A stretch of DNA of 64,000 bases from Pseudomonadota bacterium. GTDB lineage: Bacteria > SZUA-182 > DTGQ01. The notes under the pieces are model-generated. The model had not been told where the DNA came from. It saw only the letters and a program-made list of their open reading frames with translations, and did no database searches. Numbering within the stretch: position 1 is the first letter of the stretch; every line of letters begins with the position of its first letter. Below, one piece after another: positions 43,128 to 50,178 of this stretch. The stretch is taken from NCBI GenBank assembly GCA_030625085.1, contig DAOURK010000004.1:1-64000 (forward strand). Direction: 5' to 3'. The position numbers and the translations under genes were made by a program.

Positions 43128-46100
43128 ATGCGAGATGTTCATAACAGCAAAAAAGAAAATTTTTGCCTTGGCATTGATATTGGTTCAATAAGTGCTGATT
43201 TTGCTCTAATCGGGGAAAATCAAAACATTATCAAAACCTCTTATCATCGCATTAAAGGACAACCTATCCATAAAACCCTCGAGGTGCTGCAGGATGAATT
43301 TTCAGATTATCTGCAGACAGATTCCATCTGTTTATCGTTTACCGGGACCGGAGGTCAAATACTCAGTAATGTCCTTTCATGTTCCTTTATTAATGAAATT
43401 ATTGCACAAATGAGAGCAGTTACTCTTCTTTATCCTAAGGCTAAAACCATCATTGAAATCGGTGGAGAGGATTCCAAGCTGATCCTTTTGGATCATGAGG
43501 CCTCCTCAAGCCAAGCTGTCTTGAAAGACTTTGCTATGAATATGATGTGTGCAGCGGGCACCGGTTCATTTTTAGACCAGCAAGCCTCACGTCTTGGGGT
43601 ATCAATTGAAGATGAATTTAGCGAATTAGCCCTAAAATCAAAAACCCCCGCTCGTCTGGCTGGACGATGCAGCGTTTTTGCCAAATCCGATATGATACAC
43701 CTCCAACAAGAAGCAACACCGGATTGTGACATTATTGCCGGACTCTGTCAGGCTATGGTTCGAAATTTTAAAGGAACCATCGGCAAGGGTAAACAGTTTC
43801 AAAAACCCATTGTTTTTCAAGGCGGAGTAGCTGCTAACCGAGGCATGGTGAAAGCTATGGAGACTGTGTTGGGCCTAGGGCCTGGGGAATTGATCATACC
43901 CAAATACTATAATTGTATGGGGGCCATCGGGGCGGCCTTCATTGTTTTAGAAAAACCGAACTTTATTAAGGGGAATAAAGTCGTAGAAACAATCAAAGAA
44001 TATCTGGGTCAAAACCATCATAAATCCTCGCCGTTGCCGGCATTACACTGCTTTTATCATCAGCAGTCCAAGGCTCAAAAAAATAATATACCCGAAAAAA
44101 CAATCAAGTTTAAGCAAAAGACAGATGTGAGGCAAGCTTTTTTAGGGATCGATGTAGGATCGATCAGCACAAATGTAGTTGTCATTGACACTCAAAAAAA
44201 GGTGTTGTCCAAAAGATATCTGATGACTGCCGGTCGTCCAATAGAAGCAGTTCGTAAGGGATTAGAGGAAGTTGGACAAGAGGTTAAAGATCTGGTTCAT
44301 ATCTGCGGCGTAGGGACGACAGGCTCCGGTAGATATCTCATTGGTGATTTTGTGGGTGCGGACATCATTAAAAACGAAATCACCGCACAGGCAAAAGCTG
44401 CCTTCCTTATTGATCCTCAGGTTGATACCATCTTTGAAATCGGTGGGCAGGATTCAAAATATATCAGCCTGGATCAGGGTGCTGTGGTGGATTTTGAAAT
44501 GAATAAGGTTTGTGCGGCCGGGACAGGCTCCTTTTTGGAGGAGCAAGCCGAAAAATTAGAAATAAACATAAAAAAAGAATTTGAAACCATGGCCTTATCC
44601 TCCCCTTGCCCGGTGAAACTGGGAGAGCGCTGCACCGTCTTTATGGAGTCCGACCTGGTGCATCATCAACAAAAGGGTGCTGCCAAAGGTGATCTGGTTG
44701 CCGGGCTGAGTTATTCTATCGTCAATAATTACCTGAATCGTGTCGTAGCCGGCCGAAAAATCGGCCGACATATTTTTTTTCAAGGCGGAGTGGCCTTTAA
44801 CAAAAGTGTGGTAGCAGCCTTTCAACAGGTCTTAGAAAAACAAATTATTGTCCCCGACCACCATGAGGTTACCGGGGCCATTGGAGCAGCCCTTATAGCC
44901 CAGGAGGAACAAAATTGGACTCAAAGTAAATTTAAAGGCTTTGATCTGAGCAAGCGCCACTATAGCGTTGAAAGTTTTGAATGCCAGGGGTGTGCTAATC
45001 ATTGCCAAATTAAAAAAGTCACTCTCGATCTGGATCGCCCTTTATTCTATGGAAGCAGGTGCGATAAATATGATGAAAAAAAGGGAGGGAAGTCCCAACA
45101 ACGACATCCGGACCTTTTTGCTTTTCGGGCTCAAGAACTTTATAAATCCTATTTCCCCGCCCAACCGACGCCTTTCCCCCACAAAAAAAAAGTTGGGATT
45201 CCTCTTTGTCTCTTTTTTCATGAATTACTTCCCTTCTGGCGCACTTTTTTTGAAGCTTTGGGCTTGGAAGTGGTCCTTTCCCAGCCTACCAATAAAGAAA
45301 TCATTACTCAGGGAGTGCAAACAACGGTAGCAGACACATGTTTTCCCATCAAAGTCACCCATGGACATGTACTTAACCTTTTGCAAAAAGGGATTGATTA
45401 TATATTTTTACCAAGTATCATTAACATGCCTCCGGACCACAGCGACATGAATGACAGCTTTAATTGCCCCTATGTTCAAACCATTCCCTATACTGTTTGT
45501 GCAGCCATTGATATTGAAAAACAAGGGGTTGAGCTCCTTAAACCGGTTATATTTTTTCAAAAAAAAGATAACTGCCTGCCAAAAGGCTTGATTGACTTGG
45601 GCCAAGACCTTGAAAAATCAAAGGCTAAGGTAACCAAGGCCTTTAATTTAGCTCAAAGGGCGCAAAACTTTTTTTACACTACTCTTCAAAAAAAGGGGGA
45701 GGAGATCATAAAAAGGCTGCCCAAGGATGAAAAAACAATCGTTTTGATTAGTCGTCCATATAATGGTTTTGATTATGGCCTTAATTTGGAAATTCCCAAG
45801 ATTCTTCAAGATATGGGATTTCTTATTATTCCTATGGACTTTTTAGCTCTTCAGCAAAATCCTATTGCCGATGAATGGCCCAACATGTACTGGCGATACG
45901 GTCAGCGTATTTTGAGCGCCGCCAATATTATTCGCACTATGCCCAACTGTCATGCCGTTTATATTACCAATTTTAGCTGTGGTCCTGATTCTTTTATTAC
46001 CCAATTCTTTCAAAACATAATGAAAGAAAGACCCTATCTGCAAATTGAAATTGACGAACACAGCGCCGGGGCCGGAATTATAACGCGTTGTGAGGCTTTT

Positions 46101-47489
46101 GTGGATAGTCTCAAAATGCAATCCGAAGCAAAGAGACCTATTAAGTCACAGGTCTTAAATCATCCGGCACAGGCCCCCTTTCAAGAAAAGCCAAAAGACA
46201 GCCAATTAAACAATAAATGCCTCCCCTCGAGAAAAATTACTCAGTCAAGCGGACCCTTTGGTCAACCCTTAACCGCCAAATCAAATCAAAGGACCCTTTA
46301 CATTCCCCATATGTCCGAGCATGCTCATGCTATTTGTTCCGCTTTTAGATCTCAAGGGATATCGGCCGAGGTAATGCCTGAACCTGATGAGGAAACCATT
46401 TATTATGGAAGGATGTATACCTCGGGCAAGGAGTGTTATCCTTGTCTCATTACCACCGGGGACATGATTAAAATCGTTCAATCATCTGACTTTACCCCGA
46501 CGAAATATGCCTTTTTTATGCCATCCGGTGATGGCCCCTGTCGATTCGGCCAATATTACCGATTTCAAAGGATGGTACTTGATCAGTTAGGGTTTCAACA
46601 GGTACCTATATATGCTCCCAACCAAGGGGAGTCCTTTTATAATGAACTTGGGATTATCAGTAAAAAATTTTCCCGTCTGGCCTGGCAGGGGATAGTGGTT
46701 ATTGATTATCTTGAAAAATGGCTGTTGAGCCATCGCCCCTATGAAAAAATACCTGGCGAAGCTGATAAAATTTATCAAAAATGCCTATCGCTTTTATGCC
46801 ACCATATGGAAACGAAAAATTCTGTTTTCCCGGTTTTGAAAAAAATCTATCAGCCCCTAGCCTCCCTTCGTCTCAAACAAAAGACCAACCGGCCCATTAT
46901 TGGTATTGTTGGAGAAATCTTCATCCGATCTAATCGCTTCAGCAACAATGACTTAATTCGAGAAATGGAACATCTTGGAGCGGAAATTCGGCTAGCGCCA
47001 GTGAGCGAGTGGTTTCATTATATTAATTATACGGCTAAGGAGCGCAGCTTCAAGAATAAAAATTTTAAAAATTTGTTATCTACCACTATCAATGATTTTG
47101 TCCAAAAAAAAGACGAAGAAAAAATATACCGACAGCTTTGTGCCCTGATGCCCAATGGCCGGGAGCCTTCCACCAAAAAACTTCTCAAGCACAGCCGGCC
47201 CTATCTACATTCATCCTTTGAGGGAGAAGCCATCCTGACCATCGGCAAATCCATTGATTTGGTGAAAAAAAATATTTCCGGAATAATCAATGTCATGCCC
47301 TTTACGTGTATGCCGGGAAACATCAGCACCGGCATTTTAAAAAAGGTGCGAGATGATTATAAAAATTTCCCCTTCTTAAATCTGGCTTACGACGGCTTGG
47401 AGGATACAACGATTAAGACCCGTCTGGAGGCTTTTGTCCATCAAACCCGCCAATTTAAAAACCCATTTAAAAGGCCGTCGGCTCCTTAA
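43128..47489 (+). CDS. Giant 2-hydroxyacyl-CoA dehydratase activase-like fusion protein
   Basis: A 1453-residue protein with two tandem BadF/BcrA/HgdC-type ASKHA ATPase domains. The first starts LGIDIGSISADFALI (about 13), the second LGIDVGSISTNVVVI (about 337). Each carries CAAGTGSFL and a (G)RC(S/T)VF...SD motif, whose cysteines in activases hold a [4Fe-4S] cluster between subunits. After about 620 come Cys-rich CQGCANHC, a DUF2229 domain (about 680-900) and, from about 1060, a region like the dehydratase D-component (SEHAHAICSAFRSQG, GKECYPCLITTGD). Known activases inject one high-energy electron per ATP into the dehydratase. This family joins both in one chain; its substrate is unknown. 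No dehydratase, CoA-transferase or ligase gene is adjacent. Confidence 0.9.
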   Translation: MRDVHNSKKENFCLGIDIGSISADFALIGENQNIIKTSYHRIKGQPIHKTLEVLQDEFSDYLQTDSICLSFTGTGGQILSNVLSCSFINEIIAQMRAVTLLYPKAKTIIEIGGEDSKLILLDHEASSSQAVLKDFAMNMMCAAGTGSFLDQQASRLGVSIEDEFSELALKSKTPARLAGRCSVFAKSDMIHLQQEATPDCDIIAGLCQAMVRNFKGTIGKGKQFQKPIVFQGGVAANRGMVKAMETVLGLGPGELIIPKYYNCMGAIGAAFIVLEKPNFIKGNKVVETIKEYLGQNHHKSSPLPALHCFYHQQSKAQKNNIPEKTIKFKQKTDVRQAFLGIDVGSISTNVVVIDTQKKVLSKRYLMTAGRPIEAVRKGLEEVGQEVKDLVHICGVGTTGSGRYLIGDFVGADIIKNEITAQAKAAFLIDPQVDTIFEIGGQDSKYISLDQGAVVDFEMNKVCAAGTGSFLEEQAEKLEINIKKEFETMALSSPCPVKLGERCTVFMESDLVHHQQKGAAKGDLVAGLSYSIVNNYLNRVVAGRKIGRHIFFQGGVAFNKSVVAAFQQVLEKQIIVPDHHEVTGAIGAALIAQEEQNWTQSKFKGFDLSKRHYSVESFECQGCANHCQIKKVTLDLDRPLFYGSRCDKYDEKKGGKSQQRHPDLFAFRAQELYKSYFPAQPTPFPHKKKVGIPLCLFFHELLPFWRTFFEALGLEVVLSQPTNKEIITQGVQTTVADTCFPIKVTHGHVLNLLQKGIDYIFLPSIINMPPDHSDMNDSFNCPYVQTIPYTVCAAIDIEKQGVELLKPVIFFQKKDNCLPKGLIDLGQDLEKSKAKVTKAFNLAQRAQNFFYTTLQKKGEEIIKRLPKDEKTIVLISRPYNGFDYGLNLEIPKILQDMGFLIIPMDFLALQQNPIADEWPNMYWRYGQRILSAANIIRTMPNCHAVYITNFSCGPDSFITQFFQNIMKERPYLQIEIDEHSAGAGIITRCEAFVDSLKMQSEAKRPIKSQVLNHPAQAPFQEKPKDSQLNNKCLPSRKITQSSGPFGQPLTAKSNQRTLYIPHMSEHAHAICSAFRSQGISAEVMPEPDEETIYYGRMYTSGKECYPCLITTGDMIKIVQSSDFTPTKYAFFMPSGDGPCRFGQYYRFQRMVLDQLGFQQVPIYAPNQGESFYNELGIISKKFSRLAWQGIVVIDYLEKWLLSHRPYEKIPGEADKIYQKCLSLLCHHMETKNSVFPVLKKIYQPLASLRLKQKTNRPIIGIVGEIFIRSNRFSNNDLIREMEHLGAEIRLAPVSEWFHYINYTAKERSFKNKNFKNLLSTTINDFVQKKDEEKIYRQLCALMPNGREPSTKKLLKHSRPYLHSSFEGEAILTIGKSIDLVKKNISGIINVMPFTCMPGNISTGILKKVRDDYKNFPFLNLAYDGLEDTTIKTRLEAFVHQTRQFKNPFKRPSAP

Positions 47490-47863: not shown

Positions 47864-50065
47864 TTACATCGACCACCATGGACGTACGTGAATTACGAAC
47901 TCAGTGGTTGCAGCGCCGCCTCGAATATCATAAGCGGTAATTTGAACCAGATAATATCCAGGGAACTGAGTCTGGAAAGTATAGATGCCATTGTTTCCAA
48001 CAGAACCTACATTACATGACCAGTACATCTTGTCTCCATCAGGATCTTGGAAGTTCATTTCATTGGCAATAAACATTTCTCCGGCCCTGATTGTTTGAGG
48101 AGAATCAAGATCTCCCAGGACAATAGGCGGATGGTTAAACCACGTTCCCCGATTTACGCAGAAGATGGTAATTTGGCAAACAGCATTCATACCGCGAGGA
48201 TCAGTTACAGTTACAATACAATCAAGAGCACCTTCAAATTGAGGCACAAAGGATATCACACCAGTAGTCGGTCCTATAATTTGATTCATCCAAGGACCAA
48301 CCTGATAGTTAGGCAAACCGTTCAAGGTAGCGTGGTAGGTCAAACCAGCCATATCCTGTATATCAGGATCAAGGGCCAAAATTCGATAACCATTACCCTC
48401 TGATACATAAAAAATCTGATCATCAACATCATTGATTATTGGAGGATAATTGGTCACCGGATAATTAACTACTGAAATCGGAAATGTTTCCTTGTCTGTA
48501 ACTATGCCATCGCTAACTCTTGCGGTAACGATCATATCTTCAATCACCTGTCCAAGATGAGGAACTATTCTCACTGCCTGCGGTAATGTCGTATGCTCGG
48601 AATCGGCATTAGCTAATGCAATGGCTAAGCCATACATTGGGTTGGTCTCATCCATTACGTATGGGTTGCCGTCTTGATCTTCAACTGTATTAGCATCTGT
48701 TTGTATCTTATTGACAATCATTACGCCGTCTTCCTGAATCAAATATGGAGGCCACGTCTTCATCTGCGCGTCAGTAGGGTTACTAGAAATATCAGCATAC
48801 TCAATAAAACCATCAGTAATTTGAGGGCCAAGGGTATCACCCATAGTCAACGTCCAGGTAAGATCAGCGGTAATCGCTTTATCAGGATCAATATCACAAT
48901 TATCATTCGCATCAAGTTCATAAGCTTTAAAGGCAGAGGTATTCCCCAAATCAGAAAATCCGTCGACCGATCCGTCACTATTAATTGTATATGGGTCTTT
49001 CGGAAAATCCGGGTCAAAAATATTAGGGAAAATCAGATCGCCATCTTTATTATATTCGGCAGTCACTCCAAGATCGCCATCTTCGGCCAGCAGCCATCTG
49101 CCTGCAGGGTTGTAACCCTGCTGTCCATATAACTGGCAGTATACAGGCCCAACATGGAAAAGATGTGGCGCAGCATTTCCAGCTATGGAAGCCTCCGGCC
49201 TGGTGAACATAATGTTGTCTAATCTGTATTGATTTCCTCTTACCGTAATCATAGCAATCTTCTCAAGAACAGCGCTATCGTCATCATCGTCGGGGTCACC
49301 ACGATCATATTGGGCTACGATTTCAGCGAGATCTTCCATTACCAGATGCCAGGTTCCGTCCTGAAACATTCGTCCCAAGGCCACCATGATAACATCCCCC
49401 TCTTCAAGCCCTTCTCCATCGTCCAATGCATCGTCTGTCATTGCATTCAAAATACCATAATAACCCTGTGGGCCTTCAATAGGCCTGAAAACAATACTTA
49501 CTTCCTGGCCTGTATCACCACTATTTCCCGCTTGAGCCTCAACACTCACAATTATCTCAAAAGTATCGAACTGCTCTATAGCCAGAGGCGCTCTTACCTC
49601 AAGGCTCATTCCACTAAATGCTGCATCAATGATATTCCCATCATTGAATACACATGCTTTATAAATCGTAAAAACATCATATCCTGTGTTCAGAAGAAAC
49701 ACTGACATGGGCCGATAAACATCCAAGACCCTGCTTCCTTGCTCAAAGTCCAAAACGTTGTTCACTTGCCCGTAACCTAGACCGGCACCCCATACAGGGT
49801 AAGCAGGCTCAATAACGCTCCATCCCATATTTCTGGGGTTGTTCCAATATTCGAAGTTATCTACCAATGCCGTGGTAACATCCTCGCGGCCGTCATTATC
49901 CACATCCACGACTTCGCCTGTACCGTCAATACCAGCGGCATAGCCTTTTTGCAGCGGAATTTGCGTTGTCATAACCTGAGCCATAACATTACCGGCCACA
50001 AACACAGCCGCTACGGCTATAACCAAACTCATCATCAAAGCTTTCAAAAACCCTTTTTTATTCAT
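47864..50065 (-). CDS. Large secreted protein with Ig/cadherin-like C-terminal repeats
   Basis: An exported protein of about 733 residues, not recognised by name. A signal peptide (about 1-30) ends in NVMAQ. The N-terminal part has an Asp-rich calcium-like loop (DVDNDGRED) and then NFEYWNNPRNMGW and VLDFEQGSRVLDVYRP. An acidic run DPDDDDDS lies near 265. The C-terminal 220 residues contain two Ig/cadherin-like domains (FVPQFEGALDCIVTVTDPRGMN; FQDPDGDKMYWS). This looks like a cell-surface or S-layer-associated protein, possibly Ca2+- or glycan-binding. ATG 50065, with AAGGAG 8 bases upstream, is preferred to ATG 50071. A long leader and strong terminator suggest abundant expression. Confidence 0.75.
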   Translation of the reverse strand: MNKKGFLKALMMSLVIAVAAVFVAGNVMAQVMTTQIPLQKGYAAGIDGTGEVVDVDNDGREDVTTALVDNFEYWNNPRNMGWSVIEPAYPVWGAGLGYGQVNNVLDFEQGSRVLDVYRPMSVFLLNTGYDVFTIYKACVFNDGNIIDAAFSGMSLEVRAPLAIEQFDTFEIIVSVEAQAGNSGDTGQEVSIVFRPIEGPQGYYGILNAMTDDALDDGEGLEEGDVIMVALGRMFQDGTWHLVMEDLAEIVAQYDRGDPDDDDDSAVLEKIAMITVRGNQYRLDNIMFTRPEASIAGNAAPHLFHVGPVYCQLYGQQGYNPAGRWLLAEDGDLGVTAEYNKDGDLIFPNIFDPDFPKDPYTINSDGSVDGFSDLGNTSAFKAYELDANDNCDIDPDKAITADLTWTLTMGDTLGPQITDGFIEYADISSNPTDAQMKTWPPYLIQEDGVMIVNKIQTDANTVEDQDGNPYVMDETNPMYGLAIALANADSEHTTLPQAVRIVPHLGQVIEDMIVTARVSDGIVTDKETFPISVVNYPVTNYPPIINDVDDQIFYVSEGNGYRILALDPDIQDMAGLTYHATLNGLPNYQVGPWMNQIIGPTTGVISFVPQFEGALDCIVTVTDPRGMNAVCQITIFCVNRGTWFNHPPIVLGDLDSPQTIRAGEMFIANEMNFQDPDGDKMYWSCNVGSVGNNGIYTFQTQFPGYYLVQITAYDIRGGAATTEFVIHVRPWWSM

Positions 50066-50178
50066 AATCATAACTCCTTATTATACTCCTTCCAAAAATT
50101 CTCTTTCAGCCAACTTTCTTTTAGCTTAAAACCTTCTCAGTCTAAATACGAAAAACTTCTTATTTCAGCTAAATATTT

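Follow-up and report, generated by a model that had tools for sequence, protein, structure and literature searches.

A single-chain fusion of two activase modules and two dehydratase-like halves, predicted to be an ATP-driven reductase

The gene and its two activase modules

The stretch of DNA analysed here, 64,000 nucleotides long and hereafter called the window, comprises positions 1 to 64,000 of the forward strand of contig DAOURK010000004.1, from assembly GCA_030625085.1 of a Pseudomonadota bacterium. It contains at 43128–47489 (+) an open reading frame (ORF) of 1453 amino acids that starts with ATG, has no internal stops and is preceded by the purine-rich GGTGGGAG. The gene is solitary: ftsK is divergent to it and a 735-residue ORF converges with it. 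The encoded chain consists of tandem activase modules, a four-cysteine motif, a DUF2229 half and a C-terminal half resembling HGD-D. An earlier note on this DNA had described two activase modules, each with a CAAGTGS sequence, joined to DUF2229 and a dehydratase-like part, and the profile matches and intact ORF establish that this architecture is real. Nor did it arise by chance, because close relatives from the same family (67–70% identity) have the same protein length and the same domain order. From its sequence and predicted structure we think it probable that the chain unites the activator and reductase of a system resembling benzoyl-CoA reductase (BCR) and 2-hydroxyacyl-CoA dehydratase (HAD), and that it would act as an ATP-driven, low-potential one-electron reductase.

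What identifies the activase modules? Module 1 spans residues 10–290 (43155–43997) and module 2 residues 336–595 (44133–44912); like all features below, they lie on the + strand. The Pfam family BcrAD_BadFG (PF01869) matches the chain twice, far over its cut-off, marking modules of the CoA_E_activ type, and NCBIfam TIGR00241 also matches twice, at 315 bits against a curated cut-off of 125. Aligned profile to profile, the two modules are homologous at E = 1.6e-80, and by sequence module 2 matches activases of solved structure (4eht, 1hux, 9gai_D) at E values down to 2e-35. An AlphaFold2 (AF2) model of residues 8–1003 has a predicted local distance difference test score (pLDDT) of 88, mostly 85–95 in module 1, and a predicted template-modelling score (pTM) of 0.85. 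Its fold matches are the activase chains of MbdONPQ, of the 2-hydroxyisocaproyl-CoA dehydratase activator, of HgdC and of DCCP-R, at template-modelling scores (TM-t) of 0.84–0.92. The modules are joined by a tether at residues ~300–333 (44025–44126), flexible as judged by a pLDDT below 50 over residues 311–324.

How might two activase modules cooperate within one chain? CAAGTGS occurs once in each, at residues 141 and 462, and each has a second cysteine, so that module 1 contributes C141 (43548) and C181 (43668) and module 2 contributes C462 (44511) and C502 (44631). In an alignment of 67 full-length homologues, the source of all conservation counts given here, these four cysteines are kept in 67/67. 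The proposal that modules 1 and 2 form an activase dimer around a single [4Fe-4S] cluster is thereby supported; it is most likely, as judged from the conserved residues, that C141, C181, C462 and C502 share one cluster. The ATP sites differ between the modules. The GGQD-type motif of module 2 is kept in all 67 homologues; in module 1 D115 persists in 46/67 and K117 in 51/67. Such drift, with the cysteines kept, fits selection on module 1 chiefly for completing the shared cluster.

As a refinement that does not exclude the shared cluster, module 2 alone may be the full ATPase in some lineages, with module 1 mainly a cluster-completing scaffold and the coupling asymmetric. The drift of the module 1 ATP site in other lineages, where the cysteines do not drift, argues for it. 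On the other hand, both modules of the window protein retain all ATP motifs (GIDIGSIS, EIGGEDSK and FQGGVAAN are intact in module 1) together with the CAAGTG loop and second cysteine, and most relatives (58/64) keep D17 of module 1. On these grounds asymmetric coupling appears rather unlikely. Tree building places the module 2 sequences in one clade (0.999), whose sister group is the standalone activases of the split operons described below (support 1.0); module 1 falls outside both, with the base not resolved.

The modules might instead pair between the chains of a dimer, giving two activase clusters per dimer, since a long tether with a pLDDT below 50 does not enforce an intramolecular pair. 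However, with its pTM of 0.85 the 996-residue model points to a defined arrangement within a single chain, and pairing between chains seems to us highly improbable. One relative of 1308 residues (L146:7918–11841; L numbers denote loci of relatives) is missing the module 2 cysteines, its remaining cysteine groups being present.

The linker motif and the reductase halves

Between the activase and reductase parts lies a motif that has no Pfam name and that the earlier note, right about the domains, overlooked. Revealed by the homologue alignment, it reads C619-x2-C622-x3-C626-x18-C645 (44982–45062) and its four cysteines are each found in 64–65 of the 67 homologues. It is predicted to be a [4Fe-4S] or other metal site. 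A similar motif, CX2CX3CX11-13C, in flavin enzymes is predicted to bind [4Fe-4S] (PMC11574389); that the CX2CX3CX18C of the window protein also binds metal would follow by analogy. None of 18 outgroup activases of the HgdC type has the motif.

Three relatives from Bacillota, Methanolobus and Desulfobacteraceae (L084:9959–14038, L088:9998–14008, L096:9998–13966) are without the linker motif and have Y/E/E in place of the cysteine triad of the C-terminal half. Judged by their first residues, neighbouring genes resemble a metal-uptake ABC system (L088), FmdE (L096) and Fur (L084), and this variant may be a metal-related offshoot. An electron path from linker motif to C-terminal triad, considered because both are lost together in these three, was dropped: L148, which also is without the linker motif, keeps the triad.

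The reductase part consists of two halves. The DUF2229 half, HgdA/B-like by profile, fold and alignment, extends over residues 680–1003 (45165–46136), with PF09989 matching residues 688–905 well over its cut-off. A flexible tether at residues ~1004–1050 (46137–46277; pLDDT ~40, with low values over 1004–1049) leads to the C-terminal half at residues 1052–1446 (46281–47465), assigned by fold and by hhalign. The match of the C-terminal 447 residues to HGD-D (PF06050) is weak, at 18.2 bits (E = 0.0021), and does not reach the cut-off of 28.4. The two halves are homologous to each other (hhalign, E = 1.8e-9) and their cysteines are in register, C738 with C1103, C780 with C1138 and C951 with C1394. 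The first triad is kept in 67/67 homologues and the second in 64/67. Two homologous halves, each with a three-cysteine cluster site, are what HGD-D enzymes possess. The spacing in the C-terminal half, 35 + 256, is near the 33 + 252 found in BzdO for Cys95/128/380, which ligate its active-site cluster (PMC11971306).

The label ‘dehydratase-like part’ was thus too vague. Nor is the electron acceptor, to which the earlier note saw the activase tied, a lone one: with two homologous dehydratase-like halves, the chain holds its own complete reductase partner. Since modules 1 and 2 are homologous and so are the reductase halves, the chain is two pseudo-dimers in a row. Fourteen cysteines are near-invariant in the 67 homologues, and they fall into groups of 4+4+3+3 (activases, linker, DUF2229 half, C-terminal half), from which four sites of the [4Fe-4S] type are predicted.

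Likeness to known ATP-driven reductases

To which enzymes does this chain belong? Outside nitrogenase, ATP-driven electron transfer is known in few systems, archerase-type enzymes being among them. An AF2 model of residues 608–1446 (pLDDT 89, pTM 0.88) matched, at E ≤ 0.001, solely reductase subunits of the BCR/HAD class (DCCP, DCCP:DCCP-R, MbdON, BzdNO), with TM-t of 0.39–0.50 and sequence identities of 10–14%. The best of these fold matches was DCCP:DCCP-R (6eno/7yyl; E = 1.9e-6), which likewise is driven by ATP. Its double cubane needs six cysteines, and BzdN carries a six-cysteine [8Fe-9S] double cubane; the six cysteines per subunit of such a cluster were not found in the window protein, which conserves three in each half.

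Class I benzoyl-CoA reductases (MbdONPQ, BzdNOPQ, BcrABCD) resemble the window protein in having two non-identical activase modules and two homologous reductase subunits; 9gai_D matches the activase fold at a TM-t of 0.91 and 9gai_B the reductase part at 0.50. They are built of four subunits, however, not one chain. The equivalogs for these reductases fell under their cut-offs (TIGR02259, 160 against 578 bits; TIGR02261, 103 against 313; TIGR03192, 118 against 380), and no aromatic-degradation genes were found as neighbours of the window gene. The HgdC/HgdAB and HadI/HadBC systems share with it the activase cysteine pairs and the two three-cysteine reductase units, a ligand scheme reviewed in PMC11574389. 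They differ in being separate proteins, in their homodimeric activase and in a reductase part whose sequence resembles that of the window protein very little, and the HgdC-like activases tested do not have the four-cysteine motif.

The fusion itself turns out to be widespread and already described (PMC11362221), and the window protein adds one more member. In length, architecture and cysteines it is the same as the fused ‘acyl-CoA dehydratase activase-related’ proteins (PF01869 twice plus PF09989), having an ORF of ~1400 residues with all four parts and the 4+4+3+3 cysteines. The fusion reported in PMC11362221 comprises two YjiL ATPase domains and DUF2229, with a separate Hgd-D-like protein encoded beside it; in the window protein that C-terminal half is within the chain. 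New in the present analysis are the arrangement of the cysteines as 4+4+3+3, the homology between the two reductase halves of the chain, the split operon and the finding that the activase modules are asymmetric.

Several genomes encode the parts of the chain in three adjoining genes, for DUF2229 (~320 residues), a C-terminal-like protein (~365 residues) and a single activase (~320 residues) with a C-terminal four-cysteine motif. The domains and cysteine groups of these operons (L112–L114, L116–L119) match those of the fused chain, but the parts are unfused and there is one activase gene, the product of which presumably acts as a homodimer. Other genomes have a single break, located at the tether near residue 1000, which yields proteins of ~1025 and 430 residues.

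If the chain is such a fused reductase, an intramolecular ‘archerase’, how would electrons travel through it? A ferredoxin or flavodoxin would reduce the shared activase cluster, perhaps by way of the four-cysteine linker site. ATP binding and hydrolysis would then bend the activase pseudo-dimer and push an electron onto the DUF2229 cluster. It would next move to the C-terminal cluster, which in turn would reduce the substrate; this order of clusters is our proposal. With activator and acceptor sharing one chain, the fused form would lend itself to studies of ATP-coupled electron transfer in which no transient complex has to form.

Distribution, gene context and cellular role

Of the 389 genomes sampled, 138 have PF09989, and the ORFs that carry it are mostly fused; among the matches listed (n = 150), 89 are in frames of 1300 residues or more and 38 in frames of 900–1299. 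The Lactococcus lactis control also carries PF09989. The gene is present as a single copy in 9/9 searched genomes of the window's phylum. Relatives at 80 loci come from 16 named phyla of bacteria and one of archaea (Methanolobus), a count that rests partly on old labels such as Deltaproteobacteria. With weak matches removed, PF09989 occurs in 43% of genomes without a heme-copper oxidase and in 21% (35/166) of those with one (Fisher p = 5e-6, with no correction for phylogeny). In favour of a low-potential reductase, no COX1 match was found in the window's genome, which has five POR matches.

Some of these observations weigh against a fused BCR/HAD-like reductase. The 35 oxidase-bearing genomes are surprising if the enzyme is oxygen-sensitive, and two controls, Thermus and Deinobacterium, have PF09989 together with COX1, which is unexpected for a low-potential iron–sulphur reductase. 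When the reductase-half profile was searched against PDB sequences, no hit was significant and family members first appeared at E = 0.66; together with the TM-t of 0.39–0.50 this places the reductase half far from any characterised enzyme. The metal of the linker site could be zinc.

Does the gene context reveal a pathway? The absence of an adjoining substrate-specific dehydratase, CoA-transferase or ligase, as stated earlier, holds for the nearest genes scanned by profile search. Clustering of 875 neighbouring ORFs in the 80 loci found no family in more than eight loci, the top ones being generic (ABC ATPase, GFO/IDH-like oxidoreductase), and neither a recurrent catabolic context nor a consistently linked partner gene was found across them. 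One alternative is a catabolic acyl-CoA enzyme, either an ATP-dependent 2-hydroxyacyl-CoA dehydratase or an aryl/acyl-CoA reductase, with its substrate-activating enzymes encoded elsewhere. The fold class and cluster sites, which are those of HAD and BzdNO, agree with it, and an acyl-CoA reductase was proposed for a similar fusion in metagenome-assembled genomes of Ruminococcus (PMC11362221). The absence of CoA-transferase, ligase or β-oxidation neighbours at the window locus, the 80 loci, the single copy and the low identity of the reductase halves to the matched enzymes all stand against it, and we judge it improbable.

RACo and the methyl-CoM reductase activation machinery exemplify another kind of protein, the dedicated reductive activator of a metalloprotein or cofactor, which has no small-molecule substrate. 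The activase part does match TIGR03286 (methanogenesis marker 15), under its cut-off, and a housekeeping-like distribution without pathway neighbours would suit such a role. But both halves keep the three cysteines that typify HAD subunits reducing a substrate, and no partner gene is consistently linked; we hold this role to be very unlikely.

For the fused, substrate-reducing chain, the single copy without evident operon in every searched genome of the phylum and the lack of catabolic neighbours favour a housekeeping role. They fit the suggestion of a role outside amino-acid fermentation; the pattern suggests a reduction that serves biosynthesis or cofactor maintenance and not a catabolic route such as the breakdown of amino acids or aromatic compounds. 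A broader proposal, possible though on balance doubtful, is that a mostly anaerobic, widespread and so far unrecognised bacterial housekeeping reaction, dependent on ATP-boosted electrons, uses this self-contained four-cluster archerase-reductase, with the linker as a built-in electron entry. No assigned function for the DUF2229 family, present in about a third of the 389 genomes, was found in the literature searched, and identifying what it reduces would close a gap in the picture of anaerobic metabolism.

On one side of the gene in the window lie FtsK, LolA, Def, Fmt, HtpX and RsmE; on the other the 735-residue ORF, ComEC and a peptidase-MA protein. The FtsK-side genes are retained in relatives of the same family, not in more distant ones. 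The 735-residue ORF (47864–50071, −) has no Pfam or NCBIfam matches and a signal-peptide-like N-terminus. A Lactobacillus oligofermentans ‘CoA-substrate-specific enzyme activase’ with a Rex-like site upstream (PMC4972977) is a possible homologue of the window protein. At four loci labelled Deltaproteobacteria, Desulfobacteraceae or Desulfocarbo (L036, L075, L099, L104) a radical-SAM-like gene (GPVPSRRLG...CxxDCxYC) lies 0–400 bases upstream in the same orientation. At L037, L038 and L041, from the anammox planctomycetes Brocadia and Scalindua and one unplaced bacterium, the gene directly upstream resembles aconitase or 3-isopropylmalate dehydratase.

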